Shown piece after piece: positions 11,407 through 63,776 of a DNA stretch of 64,000 nt (positions are counted from its first letter, which is position 1; the number at the start of each line of letters is the position of its first letter). The notes below the pieces were generated by a model, which saw only the letters and a list, made by a program, of their open reading frames with translations, ran no database searches and was not told the origin of the DNA. Source of the stretch: Tepidicaulis marinus (GTDB lineage Bacteria > Pseudomonadota > Alphaproteobacteria > Parvibaculales > Parvibaculaceae); NCBI RefSeq assembly GCF_000739695.1, contig NZ_BBIO01000008.1, forward strand, positions 1-64,000, read 5' to 3'. A program made the position numbers and the translations under genes.

Positions 11407-12336
11407 TTAGCCACGGAAGAGCGCCAGAATGTTCTGCGGCGCGCCATTGGCGATCGTCAGCGCCTGAATACCCAGCTGCTGCTGGACCTGCAGGGCTTTC
11501 AGACGAGCGCTTTCGCGGTTCATGTCGGCATCGACCAGCACACCGATACCGCGTTCTGCGGCGTCGGCGAGCTTCTGCACGAAGTCGTGCTGAATGCCCA
11601 GACGCTTTTCGATCGACCCCAGCGTGGAGCCGACTTCGGTCGCCTTGGCAACAGCTGCTTCGACTTCACCCAGTGCGTCGGCAAGATCGGCAGCCGTGGT
11701 GGTGTTGTCGATCGCGAAAGCGGCATCGAGGATACCGTTGGCGATCAAGCCGGCCGCACCACCGCTAAGCTGCGTGGTGAAGTGGCCATCACCCACCGCT
11801 GCACCGACATAGGCCGTCTGGCCCGGATCGAACACGATATTCTGCGGCGTAACCGTGGCACCCGTACGCACAAGCGAGGCAAGGATGTTCACGGGGTTAC
11901 CGTTGTTGTTCGTATCGTTGATCGAACCGTCCAGCCAGTTGTTGCCGTTAAAGTTGGCGGAGTTCACCACTGAGAGGATCTGCCCCTTCAACTGCTGGAT
12001 ATCGTCGTTGATCTTCTCCTTGTCCACACCGGCATCCTGGGCCGCCACGAGACGCTGCTTCATATCCTTGAGCAGGTTCACGATGGATTCGTTGGCGGTG
12101 GACGCCACGTCCGCGGTCGCCTGACCGAGGCCGATAGCATCCGAAATCGCCTGATAGCCCACGAGGTCGGTCCGCATCGTCGTGGCAATCGCCCAATAAG
12201 CCGCGTTGTCCTTGGCTTTTGCGACGCGCATGCCCGTCGAAATACGGTCCTGGGTCATTTCCAGCTGCTGGTTCGTGCTGGTAAGGGTCTGCAGCGCGGT
12301 CATTGCGCCGACATTAGTGAGAATAGAAGCCGTCAT
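11407..12336 (-). CDS. fliC: Flagellin
   Basis: This 309-residue flagellin has conserved D0/D1 ends: N-terminal ALQTLTSTNQQLEMTQDRIS and VAKAKDNAAYWAIA, C-terminal ARLKALQVQQQLGIQALTIA and PQNILALFRG. The central variable region is short (about residues 135-215), giving a small flagellin as is common in alphaproteobacteria. It is the only flagellin gene in the window. The gene has its own 35-bp flagellar element and a leader of about 100 nt, and ends at a terminator. FlaF and FlbT, encoded at 48083-48883, are known regulators of flagellin synthesis; the long leader could be the target. Confidence 0.96.
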   Translation of the reverse strand: MTASILTNVGAMTALQTLTSTNQQLEMTQDRISTGMRVAKAKDNAAYWAIATTMRTDLVGYQAISDAIGLGQATADVASTANESIVNLLKDMKQRLVAAQDAGVDKEKINDDIQQLKGQILSVVNSANFNGNNWLDGSINDTNNNGNPVNILASLVRTGATVTPQNIVFDPGQTAYVGAAVGDGHFTTQLSGGAAGLIANGILDAAFAIDNTTTAADLADALGEVEAAVAKATEVGSTLGSIEKRLGIQHDFVQKLADAAERGIGVLVDADMNRESARLKALQVQQQLGIQALTIANGAPQNILALFRG

Positions 12337-12439
12337 AGCTCTGTTTCCTTCTTTCTAGGTTCAAAGAGGTGTCCCGCCTTCTGACGACCTGCAAAGATCC
12401 GCCGTGCTTCTGACTGGCCGGACCTGAGATGACATCTTG
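12337..12439 (-). other. Flagellin mRNA 5' leader with repeated GTCAGAAG
   Basis: If box 3 of the upstream element is a -10, the flagellin transcript has a leader of about 95 nt. On the minus strand it contains GTCAGAAG twice, 29 bp apart (12414-12407 and 12385-12378), each followed by a GGCGG/GCGGG run. The Shine-Dalgarno site AAGAAGGAAA follows. In Caulobacter FlbT acts through the flagellin leader; such a role here is only suggested. Confidence 0.35.
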
Positions 12440-12474
12440 AGCTTTCCCGCCTCCGGTTAAACGCGGGTTTAAGT
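12440..12474 (-). promoter_or_regulatory. 35-bp flagellar regulon element, site K (flagellin)
   Basis: Minus strand: box 1 CTTAAA, box 2 GTTTAACC at the standard offset, box 3 AAAGCT (the weakest box 3 of the set). It lies about 100 bp before the flagellin start. Confidence 0.65.
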
Positions 12475-12509
12475 TTGCGCGGGCGAGCGTCCGGCGCGCG
12501 GAGCGCTTT

Positions 12510-12544
12510 TCTTAAAACCTGATTTAACCGCCCCTTCCTAGCGT
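12510..12544 (+). promoter_or_regulatory. 35-bp flagellar regulon element, site F (motA operon)
   Basis: Plus strand: box 1 CTTAAA, box 2 ATTTAACC, box 3 TAGCGT, all at the standard offsets. It lies 94 bp before the motA ATG. It is back to back with the flagellin site, 36 bp away. Confidence 0.75.
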
Positions 12545-12638
12545 GTCCCGATGCTGCACGAGGTGCGTTGCACTCGTTGCATTGCGTGTGAAATGCGCGG
12601 GCGCTCAATGCCGCCCGCCAAAGACAGGGAACAGCGCC

Positions 12639-13529
12639 ATGGGTCCTCTTATCGGTATCCCGCTTCTGATCATCGCCGTGATCGGCGGCTATATGGGTAT
12701 GGGAGGAGAAATTTCCGTTCTCTGGCAACCCTTCGAAATGCTGATCGTGGTGGGCGCTGCTATCTCCACGCTGATCATCGGCAATCCGCTGGCGGTCGTG
12801 AAAGACACGGTGCGCTCGGTCGGCGATCTTTTCAACGGCAAGAAGGTGAAGGAAGAAGATTACCTCGAACTTCTCAGCCTGCTTTATGCAATTTTGCGCT
12901 CCGTGAAGGGCCAGGGCATGCTGCAGCTTGAAAACATGATCGAGCGCCCGCATGAGAGCGAGCTTTTCCAGCAATATCCGCGCGTGCTTGCCAATCCGCG
13001 CGCCGTCAATTTCCTCTGCGATTATCTGCGCCTTCTTTCGCTCGGCACCGCCAAGCCGCATGAGATCGAATCCCTTATGGATGAGGAAATCCGCATCCTT
13101 TCCAAAGATCTGCACCGGCCGACCCATGCGCTGCAAGTCATAGCCGATGCCCTGCCCGCGCTCGGTATCGTGGCGGCGGTGCTCGGTGTGATTAGAGCGA
13201 TGGGCGCGATCAATCAGCCGCCGGAAGTACTCGGCCATCTGATCGGCGGGGCGCTCTTCGGCACGTTTATCGGTGTCTTCCTTTCTTACGGGGTCGTCAG
13301 CCCGCTGGCCGGGCTCGTGCGCACCAACAAGGACGCGCAGATCAGCTATTTCCTGGCGATCAAATCCACCCTGCTTGCGCATCTGAACGGGGCGGCCGCG
13401 CAGGTTGCCATCGAATATGGCCGCAAGGTGCTGCATATCGATGCGCAGCCGAGCTTCGATGCGGTGGAAAAATCCACCGTGCTTGAAAACGACGTCATCC
13501 GGCACGCTAAAGCCCGCGACGCAGCCTAA
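12639..13529 (+). CDS. motA: Flagellar stator protein MotA
   Basis: This 296-residue inner-membrane protein has four hydrophobic segments: two near the N terminus (IPLLIIAVIGGYMGMGG and MLIVVGAAISTLIIG) and two after residue 170 (ALPALGIVAAVLGVIRAMG and LIGGALFGTFIGVFLSYG), separated by the large cytoplasmic loop that contacts FliG. The conserved Pro of PALGIVAAVLG is present. It forms the proton channel with MotB, encoded about 29 kb away. ATG 12639 is chosen because MotA proteins start directly with the first helix. It heads an operon with a FliL-like gene and an unrecognised gene. Confidence 0.95.
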   Translation: MGPLIGIPLLIIAVIGGYMGMGGEISVLWQPFEMLIVVGAAISTLIIGNPLAVVKDTVRSVGDLFNGKKVKEEDYLELLSLLYAILRSVKGQGMLQLENMIERPHESELFQQYPRVLANPRAVNFLCDYLRLLSLGTAKPHEIESLMDEEIRILSKDLHRPTHALQVIADALPALGIVAAVLGVIRAMGAINQPPEVLGHLIGGALFGTFIGVFLSYGVVSPLAGLVRTNKDAQISYFLAIKSTLLAHLNGAAAQVAIEYGRKVLHIDAQPSFDAVEKSTVLENDVIRHAKARDAA

Positions 13530-19765: not shown

Positions 19766-19800
19766 ACGCTAGGCGGCGCTGTTTAAACTGGCTTAAAAGG
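19766..19800 (-). promoter_or_regulatory. 35-bp flagellar regulon element, site C (flgI operon)
   Basis: Minus strand: box 1 CTTTTA, box 2 GTTTAAAC, box 3 TAGCGT, standard offsets, 33 bp before the flgI ATG. The rest of this 316-bp interval up to the ftcR-like gene holds no gene, and I see no clear element for the rightward gene. Confidence 0.78.
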
Positions 19801-20079
19801 ATGGCGCTCTTTTGCCGTTCCCGAAGATTTCAAATCGGAATTTTCATAAGAGTTGAAAAAAGTTTTCAGACAAAGCCCGTCGAAATCATGCGGAAGATGA
19901 AAAACACATGAAGTTTTGAAATCTAAGACGAAATGCAACGAATGAATTAAGCAGCCCTTTACAGGCGGTGCCTCTTATTGGTCACGAAACAGTGAGTCAA
20001 CACTGCGGAGTTTTCTAAGGCCGGTCTCTCAAGGACGGAGAGAGAGCCAGTGAACTTTGCATCACTTATCGAGGGCACA

Positions 20080-20841
20080 ATGGGCAACAAGCGCAAGAAA
20101 ACGAACCTGGCACTTCTAGAAAAGAATGCCGGCGTGGCAGCCGCCTTGGAGCGCGTCTTTGCAAAAGAGCGGGCGGACATTTCCACGATCGAAGAGTACG
20201 GGCTTGACGATATTACCGATGCATTCGCCGCGGATCTGAACAATTATCAGGGTGCGCTGATCGGCGAGACCCAGGACATGGAAGAAACGATCCGGCTGCT
20301 GCGCAAGCTGGGCTGCGAGGTGCCCGTCGTGGCGCTGATCGATCACAAGAACAGCGCGCTTTCCATTGCGCTTTTGAACGCCGGGGCGGACGATGTGATG
20401 GTCAAACCGGTTAATGCCGGTGAAGTGATCGAGCGTATCCACGCGGTTATCCGCCGGGCCCATGGCCATCCCACCACCTCCATCGAGATCGGCGAAATCA
20501 CCGCCTATCTGGATGGCCGCGATCCGGAAATCCGGGGAGAGCGGGTCAAACTCAGCCACCGCGAACATACGATTTTCACCCAGCTGGCGCTGCGCGTCGG
20601 ACGTGTGGTGGCCAAGGAAACGATTTACGACGCTGTATACGGCATGCGCGATACGCAGCCTTTCGACAAAGTTGTCGATGTCTATATCTGCAAGCTGCGC
20701 AAGAAGCTCGCCAGTTATACGGATGGGGCCTCTTATATCGAGACGGTTTACGGGCGCGGCTACAAACTCGAAGCGCCGGAGGAAATCACCCTGGTGCGCC
20801 CCGCGCCTCTTCAGAGCGAGGCGGTCGCCGCGAATTTCTGA
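20080..20841 (+). CDS. ftcR: FtcR/Rem-like OmpR-family flagellar regulator
   Basis: The N-terminal 125 residues form a degenerate receiver domain and the C-terminal 100 an OmpR-type winged helix: VKLSHREHTIFTQLALRVG, DKVVDVYICKLRKKLASY and YIETVYGRGYKLEAP. In the receiver, GALIGETQDME aligns with the usual beta-3 strand, placing Glu where the phosphoacceptor Asp belongs, and the acidic pair near the start is also absent; the Lys of VMVKP remains. FtcR (Brucella) and Rem (Sinorhizobium) are orphan activators of flagellar genes. ATG 20080 has GAGGG upstream; GTG 20050 would add ten residues. No kinase gene is adjacent. Confidence 0.82.
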   Translation: MGNKRKKTNLALLEKNAGVAAALERVFAKERADISTIEEYGLDDITDAFAADLNNYQGALIGETQDMEETIRLLRKLGCEVPVVALIDHKNSALSIALLNAGADDVMVKPVNAGEVIERIHAVIRRAHGHPTTSIEIGEITAYLDGRDPEIRGERVKLSHREHTIFTQLALRVGRVVAKETIYDAVYGMRDTQPFDKVVDVYICKLRKKLASYTDGASYIETVYGRGYKLEAPEEITLVRPAPLQSEAVAANF

Positions 20842-20871
20842 TTTCCGCCGGACACGGCTTTCCCTCAAACG

Positions 20872-20902
20872 AAAAGCGCTGCCTTTAGGGCAGCGCTTTT
20901 TT
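20872..20902. terminator. Bidirectional terminator
   Basis: Twelve-base arms (20872-20883 and 20889-20900) with a TTTAG loop, A4 on the left and T6 on the right. It separates the ftcR-like gene from the convergent end of the fliF operon. Confidence 0.92.
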
Positions 20903-20926
20903 GTGCCGGTTTACCGGCCTCGCCGC

Positions 20927-34992: not shown

Positions 34993-35027
34993 ACGCTAAA
35001 GAGCGGCGTTTAAACGGGAGTATAAGT
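34993..35027 (-). promoter_or_regulatory. 35-bp flagellar regulon element, site D (fliI operon)
   Basis: Minus strand: box 1 CTTATA, box 2 GTTTAAAC, box 3 TAGCGT, standard offsets. It lies 34 bp before ATG 34959, so the leader would be short. Confidence 0.78.
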
Positions 35028-41239: not shown

Positions 41240-41274
41240 ACGCTAGAGCGCGATGTTTAAGCTGGGAATAAAGA
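41240..41274 (-). promoter_or_regulatory. 35-bp flagellar regulon element, site A (flgE-flgK-flgL)
   Basis: Minus strand: box 1 CTTTAT, box 2 GCTTAAAC, box 3 TAGCGT, standard offsets, 96 bp before the flgE ATG. Box 2 to box 3 is nearly identical to the flaF site. Confidence 0.78.
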
Positions 41275-48953: not shown

Positions 48954-48988
48954 ACGCTAGGCGGGGATGTTTAAGCTGGGTTTTAAGC
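48954..48988 (-). promoter_or_regulatory. 35-bp flagellar regulon element, site B (flaF-flbT operon)
   Basis: Minus strand: box 1 CTTAAA, box 2 GCTTAAAC, box 3 TAGCGT, standard offsets; best match to the consensus. Its 3' edge lies 71 bp before the flaF ATG. It marks the right-hand end of the flagellar island. Confidence 0.82.
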
Positions 48989-62300: not shown

Positions 62301-63776
62301 CTATTGCGCGGCCAATGCGGCAGCCGCCCTGTCCTGGGGAATGCAGATGCGGAAGACCGTCTTGCCCGGTACGCTCTCGATCAAGGTCAACTTACCGCCA
62401 TGGGCTTCGGCCAATTCCGCGGAAATGGCAAGCCCCAGCCCCGTGCCCCCGGCGCGGGCGGAGCCTGCAAAGGCCTGGAAGAGATGTTTGCGCGCCCGCT
62501 CCGGCAGGCCGGGGCCATTGTCCCAAACCTCGATCTCGACTTTGTCGTCCTCTTCGAGCCAGGCCCGCACTATGATTTCGCCGTCGCTGCCCTGGAGCGC
62601 CTCGGCGGCATTGCGTATGAGATTGAGGAGGATGCGGAAAAGCTGATCGGGATCGGCATGAATGCGCAGATCCGGCGGAATATCGCAGACAAAAGCGACG
62701 CGGCCTTCATCCTCGAGGCCGGAAGCGCTTCTGAGTTCTTCCATGAAATTGGCAAGGAGAAAGAAGCGCCGCTGCGGCGGGTCTTCCTCGGCTCTGCCGA
62801 ATTTCAGCGTCTTTTCGCAAAGATCAATGGCCCGGTCGATGGAGCCGAAAAGCCGGGGCCCGAGTTTTTGCACCGTGGGATCGCTCACCCCGGCAATGCG
62901 GTCGGAAATGAGCTGCGCATTGGCCAAAATGTTGCGCAGATCGTGATTGATCTTGCTCACCGCGCCGCCAAGCGCGGCAAGGCGCGCCTGCTGGTTCAGC
63001 GTCGAGCGGATCTGCCGCTGCATCGCTTCAAGCTCGCTTTCGGCAACACCGATCTCATCGCGCCGCCCGGATGCCGTGATGACGCGGCGAATGTCTTCGG
63101 GCTTTTCGCGGAAGGCCACCATGTTTTCCGAAATCCGCCGGAGCGGGCGCACCAGAAAGCGGTTGAGCGCAAAGAACAAAAGTCCGGCCGTGATGACGGA
63201 GATCACCAGCGAGAGCGTGAAGATATTGATGCCGTAGCCGATCATCGCCCGGCGCAGCGGCGTTTCGTCGATCACCAGATCAATCACATCCCCGCCCATG
63301 AAACGCGGCTCGCCGATAACGCGGATCGTGCGCCCGTCCCCGGCAAAGAGCGTTTCAAGCGCATGCCAGATCAATGTCGGGGGAAATTGCTCGCGGGTAT
63401 CATACCCCTTGTCGATTTCCGGCAGGTTTTCTTTTGTCAGGATCAGACGGCGCGTTGCATCGCGGTGCAGGACGATGGCATAGGCCTCGGCATTCTTCAG
63501 AAGCTCGAGCTGCAAGGCGCTCGAAACCATGTTGTCAGGCGTCGCCTCCAGCGCGAGCGTCGCGATCTGCGCGTTGGCAAGACGCTGCTCGAGCCAGTTC
63601 AAACGGAAATTGGCGATGGAGGGAAAGAAGATCAGCACTTCCGCCGCCATCACGAAGATGACGGTCAAAAGCAGAAGCTGGGAGGACAATGAGCGCGAAT
63701 AGCGCGCGGCAAAGCTTTGATGCCCGGCAGAATTCCGGCCCGCGCCTGTCGTTGCATCCAGCTGCTTGGTCCTCAT
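62301..63776 (-). CDS. Membrane sensor histidine kinase
   Basis: The product is about 491 residues from ATG 63776 (AGGTGA upstream). Two transmembrane helices (SQLLLLTVIFVMAAEVLIFF and FTLSLVISVITAGLLFFALN) enclose a periplasmic sensor region of about 150 residues. A HAMP-like linker follows, then the phosphoacceptor His in AVSKINHDLRNILANAQLIS, the N box LLNLIRNAAEALQGSDGEI-type text and DNGPGLPERARKHLFQAFAG, GGTGLGLAIS. No response regulator is adjacent. The signal is unknown. Confidence 0.93.
   Translation of the reverse strand: MRTKQLDATTGAGRNSAGHQSFAARYSRSLSSQLLLLTVIFVMAAEVLIFFPSIANFRLNWLEQRLANAQIATLALEATPDNMVSSALQLELLKNAEAYAIVLHRDATRRLILTKENLPEIDKGYDTREQFPPTLIWHALETLFAGDGRTIRVIGEPRFMGGDVIDLVIDETPLRRAMIGYGINIFTLSLVISVITAGLLFFALNRFLVRPLRRISENMVAFREKPEDIRRVITASGRRDEIGVAESELEAMQRQIRSTLNQQARLAALGGAVSKINHDLRNILANAQLISDRIAGVSDPTVQKLGPRLFGSIDRAIDLCEKTLKFGRAEEDPPQRRFFLLANFMEELRSASGLEDEGRVAFVCDIPPDLRIHADPDQLFRILLNLIRNAAEALQGSDGEIIVRAWLEEDDKVEIEVWDNGPGLPERARKHLFQAFAGSARAGGTGLGLAISAELAEAHGGKLTLIESVPGKTVFRICIPQDRAAAALAAQ

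Follow-up and report, generated by a model that had tools for sequence, protein, structure and literature searches.

A probable kinase-independent, CtrA-like regulator with an aspartate-less receiver in a fla2-type flagellar cluster of Tepidicaulis marinus

In the window, by which we mean the whole stretch of 64,000 nucleotides that was analysed, flagellar genes span about 11 to 49 kb (10700-49000), and among them lies the gene of an OmpR-type response regulator. The gene and its flanking features are as follows:

19898..20016, plus strand: conserved upstream block, likely the promoter region of the regulator gene (from conservation in the sister genome)
20080..20841, plus strand: fla2-type Rem/FtcR-like response regulator (253 aa; aspartate-less receiver plus OmpR-type winged helix)
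20869..20904, plus strand: probable intrinsic terminator, a hairpin (fold -22.8 kcal/mol; z -4.87) with a T run behind it

The open reading frame at 20080-20841 on the plus strand is a real gene. Its orthologue in the sister genome encodes a 94% identical protein (dN 0.032, dS 0.77), and the resulting dN/dS of ~0.04 indicates strong purifying selection; in the same comparison the ratio is ~0.07 for the receiver part (residues 1-127), and the DNA-binding domain is more conserved than the receiver. The ATG at 20080 is favoured as the start codon, since in the sister genome a 1-nt difference just upstream disrupts the frame from the GTG at 20050. Given the terminator, whose hairpin is absent from the terminator list of a pattern scan, the gene probably forms a single transcription unit. 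The upstream block is well kept in the sister genome, with diverged flanks on both sides, and contains a one-mismatch CtrA-like box, TTAAGCAGCCCTTTAC, at 19947-19962; taken alone, the count of such boxes across the window lacks significance. The block lacks the 35-bp element described below, so that the regulator gene is probably under different control. No kinase or other receiver is encoded near the regulator, and the nearest HATPase_c domain (62331-62654) is ~41 kb away, in agreement with the first-pass annotation, which had stated that no histidine kinase gene is adjacent.

The protein scores 23.0 bits against the receiver family PF00072, under the Pfam cut-off of 30.2, and 69.0 bits against the winged-helix family PF00486 (cut-off 26.2; residues 153-230). 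The active-site positions were read from alignments, made by MAFFT and by profile, with canonical regulators including CtrA:

20122..20127, plus strand: Lys15-Asn16 in place of the Mg-binding acidic pair (alignments)
20263..20265, plus strand: Gly62 codon, aligned with the phosphoacceptor Asp (profile alignments; beta3 ends at 62)
20266..20268, plus strand: Glu63 codon, one past the acceptor position (alignments, AF2 model, column composition)
20338..20340, plus strand: Ile87 in place of the conserved Thr/Ser (alignments)
20404..20406, plus strand: Lys109 of VKP, kept in this regulator and gone from most fla2 orthologues (alignments)
20536..20769, plus strand: OmpR-type winged-helix domain (PF00486 at residues 153-230)

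The E-D-D of CtrA stands opposite E14-K15-N16, and of the canonical residues (the DD pair, the acceptor Asp, the Thr/Ser and the Lys) the lysine alone is left, so that the protein is no canonical phosphorylatable receiver of the PF00072 type. These data bear out the earlier description of a beta-3 strand reading GALIGETQ (present in the translation), a missing acidic pair for magnesium, an intact VKP lysine and an intact winged helix. That description did not mention Ile87 at the Thr/Ser site or a short beta3-alpha3 loop that has neither the Pro at D+4 nor the Gly at D+8; from Gly62 to the Pro opening beta4 there are 20 residues compared with 23 in CtrA, so that ~3 residues are missing from the loop. 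A receiver fold is nevertheless kept, with PDB receiver domains matching the AF2 model at Z up to 16.6. Judged by its residues, the phosphotransfer site is gone and the receiver cannot be phosphorylated. At the DD2 position, the site of the second metal-binding acid, 30/31 Rem rows and 47/61 fla2-type rows carry an Arg, which could pair with an acidic residue of the Glu63 column.

The first-pass annotation had also placed a Glu at the phosphoacceptor position, which is one residue off. Glu63 lies outside the Asp column in all six profile-profile alignments. In the two CtrA alignments that draw on the four sequences of highest similarity the acceptor Asp is opposite Gly62; in the remaining ones it meets a gap, Ile61 or Gln57, the last two registers coming from a three-sequence profile and being plainly poor alignments. 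In the AF2 model (mean pLDDT 83.4, ~90 or more around beta3), beta3 comprises residues 58-62 and thus ends on Gly62, and alpha3 begins at 67. A canonical control, modelled from a single sequence, has the Asp as the last residue of beta3, which at a pLDDT of 55.5 is a hint only. The closest profile alignments and the predicted structure hence both favour Gly62 over Glu63 at the acceptor site, and by these predictions the protein does not belong with the pseudo-receivers that have a Glu there.

To place the regulator, 60 loci from a genome scan were combined with plasmid loci from Indioceanicola, Azospirillum and Sulfitobacter, and with a Rem sample consisting of Sinorhizobium meliloti Rem and of Rem homologues from the order that includes G396, presumably Rhizobiales. 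Class-wide searches, in which genomes were thinly sampled and few candidates were scored per genome, found few members. In the tree, 37 fla2-type and 24 Rem rows share a branch with a support of 100/99 that excludes CtrA and the remaining OmpR-type regulators; one distant row, L094, falls outside this branch. The fla2-type rows as a single clade have a weaker support of 89/54, which, together with the meeting of some long branches, leaves the finer placement unsure. The regulator shares with the Rem/FtcR/LafR family an aspartate-less receiver, an OmpR-type winged helix and a gene location inside a flagellar cluster, and by sequence it is a new branch of this known family, sister to it; most simply, the Asp would have been lost in a single event before the fla2-type/Rem split. 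An identity as CtrA was rejected, as the protein falls outside the CtrA clade and reaches 140.9 bits with the NCBIfam CtrA model (cut-off 350). Among the 25 NCBIfam matches listed, no named equivalog is above its cut-off.

Rem of S. meliloti and Agrobacterium likewise has the OmpR-type winged helix, a receiver without acceptor Asp, a LIG motif closing beta3, the DGRDPEI motif and a gene in a flagellar cluster. It is reported to be active without phosphorylation (PMC9812332, PMC12632262). However, Rem proteins form their own well-supported clade, separate from the fla2 branch within the joint clade, mostly keep the Lys and have Ser/Asn at the T position; VisNR drives Rem (PMC8429497). FtcR of Brucella and ActR of Azorhizobium are likened here by description, as homologous flagellar regulators, and the fla2 branch falls outside the sampled Rem clade; FtcR-like proteins have been reported from Rhizobiales and Rhodobacterales (PMC8639532). 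Also by description, LafR of Bradyrhizobium diazoefficiens is a Rem homologue for a second flagellar system that works without phosphorylation (PMC8429497), and the genome studied here also has two flbT genes. As Rem and LafR have already been reported as phosphorylation-free orphan regulators, the kind of protein is known, whereas the literature searched yielded no experiment on a fla2-type member. The closest canonical relative is CtrA, with a recognition-helix core of DVFICKLRKKL compared with DVYICKLRKKL in the regulator; CtrA differs by its full phosphorylation site and its separate clade. On an Azospirillum brasilense plasmid (L102), a Rem-group homologue is found beside flagellar genes at 11989-12768, in contrast to the statement that A. 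brasilense encodes no rem (PMC8429497).

The best matches of the regulator are in Rhodobacterales and Azospirillaceae, and other members of the taxonomic family, outside the genus, give weak, CtrA-like matches only. A second flbT is present on another contig (G000:C42:64308-64673), which points to probably two flagellar systems in the genome. Both observations fit horizontal acquisition, and the cluster in the window probably encodes a horizontally acquired fla2-type second flagellum, with the label fla2 taken from the relatives of the regulator. Clusters of this type in Rhodobacterales are often plasmid-borne and spread horizontally (PMC12363192).

Four copies of a 35-bp element, ACGCTAG...GTTTAA...CTGG, occur genome-wide, three of them exact and one with three mismatches, and all precede flagellar operons on the minus strand:

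19766..19800, minus strand: element copy 1, upstream of flgI
34993..35027, minus strand: diverged element copy with 3 mismatches, upstream of fliI (flagellar ATPase)
41240..41274, minus strand: element copy, upstream of flgE
48954..48988, minus strand: element copy, upstream of flaF-flbT

The same four copies are found in the sister genome, and none would be expected by chance. No match was found outside the genus in the loci compared. Read on the minus strand, the element consists of CCAGYTTAAACA followed by CTAGCGT (CTTTAGCGT in the fliI copy), and these parts could represent a candidate activator site and a core promoter. The spacing of TTAA differs between the copies, and with its upstream half thus degenerate the element may be mainly a core promoter. 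A sigma factor encoded in the cluster was considered as its reader and rejected, as 0/9 sigma-70 region-2 matches lie on the window's contig; the Sulfitobacter and Azospirillum clusters do carry a sigma factor. An unbiased tally of the gapped 4-mers that lie upstream of genes in the fla2 loci of Rhodobacterales ranks CAAG-N1-ATAG first and TTAA-N7-TTAA second, the latter seen 20 times compared with ~1.4 expected, although the counts are not independent because the loci are related. A spacing of 7 also stands out among TTAA pairs in intergenic DNA (46, next spacing 18). TTAA-N7-TTAA boxes lie before flagellar-cluster genes in L040-L095, often several before the regulator gene (L046, L049, L050). 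As the recognition helix is nearly that of CtrA, either protein could reasonably be expected to use a TTAA-type site, and it is plausible from this helix and the TTAA core that the regulator reads the 35-bp element.

We consider it likely that the protein is a cluster-specific, kinase-independent activator of the fla2-type flagellum and belongs to a sister branch of Rem/FtcR/LafR. The receiver, its phosphotransfer site gone, would now probably serve as a fixed dimerisation or partner-binding domain, so that the regulator would be active once made, with its output set by its amount and possibly also by a protein partner. Through its winged helix, the regulator would bind the TTAA-containing promoter sites of the flgI, fliI, flgE and flaF operons; dimerisation, element binding and activation are all inferred steps. 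The explanation is favoured by the loss of the D, DD and T positions and the sub-cut-off receiver next to a well-scoring DNA-binding domain, by the joint clade and DGRDPEI motif shared with Rem, the purifying selection, the flagellar setting and the lack of a nearby kinase, and by the confinement of the element to four flagellar-operon sites, the CtrA-like recognition helix and the TTAA-N7-TTAA enrichment. It is weakened by the presence in the same genome of CtrA, which could also read TTAA sites, by the degenerate element half and by the finding that, among the loci compared, no match to the element lies beyond the genus. The earlier suggestion of activity without a kinase is well supported by the lost active site and by the reports on Rem and LafR, its nearest studied relatives, from which kinase independence is extrapolated as probable.

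The cause proposed in the first-pass annotation, a Glu that fills the acceptor pocket, mimics phospho-Asp and locks the receiver in the active state, we regard as very unlikely. Lys109 is retained in this regulator, aspartate-less receivers most often have a Glu at the D position (PMC12632262), and the Glu63 column is acidic in 44/61 fla2-type rows (E 31, D 13, A 7, S 5, G 4, T 1) and 26/31 Rem rows (D 21, E 5, Q 3, T 1, A 1). A phosphomimetic Glu is, however, thought to contact Thr and Lys (PMC12632262), and the pattern contradicts such a mimic, as most of the fla2 group has an Arg at the T position and Lys109 is kept in 4/60 and lost in 56/60 of the fla2-type rows counted. Given these losses and the Ala, Ser, Gly, Thr or Gln found in the rest of the column, a conserved Glu-Thr-Lys latch is unlikely, and with Glu63 one residue past the phosphorylation site the protein probably has no built-in phosphate mimic. 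Moreover, PMC12632262 describes the D-residue explanation as disproved for some pseudo-receivers, citing the same Agrobacterium paper as for Rem. Mimicry by Glu63 was rejected on the alignment register and the conservation of the column.

A receiver that still takes a signal, with binding of a partner or ligand switching the regulator, is a possibility to be taken seriously, if less than even. The purifying selection on residues 1-127 and the retained fold speak for it, as does the inhibition of Rem by binding of MirA (PMC12632262); yet the cluster has no known partner gene, and conservation is lower in the receiver than in the DNA-binding domain. That CtrA reads the flagellar promoters, leaving the regulator a minor or modulating factor, seems unlikely. 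CtrA is encoded in the same genome (on C28), controls flagella in several alphaproteobacteria (PMC6180460, PMC12363192), and perfect TTAA-N7-TTAA boxes precede genes of the Rhodobacterales fla2 loci. But the element is confined to four sites of this one cluster, only one of its copies fits the CtrA box within one mismatch, and Rem and LafR are required for their own flagella (PMC8429497, PMC5996035).

The analysis corrects the Glu claim, ties the regulator to a specific, testable DNA element and, with the kinase-independent activator proposed here, extends the phosphorylation-independent Rem/FtcR group to fla2-type flagellar clusters. With considerable reserve, we speculate that mobile fla2-type clusters carry their own kinase-free, CtrA-like reader of CtrA-type TTAA repeats, freeing the incoming flagellum from CckA-ChpT-CtrA control by the host. 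A regulator without need for a matching kinase would help such a cluster to function in a new host.
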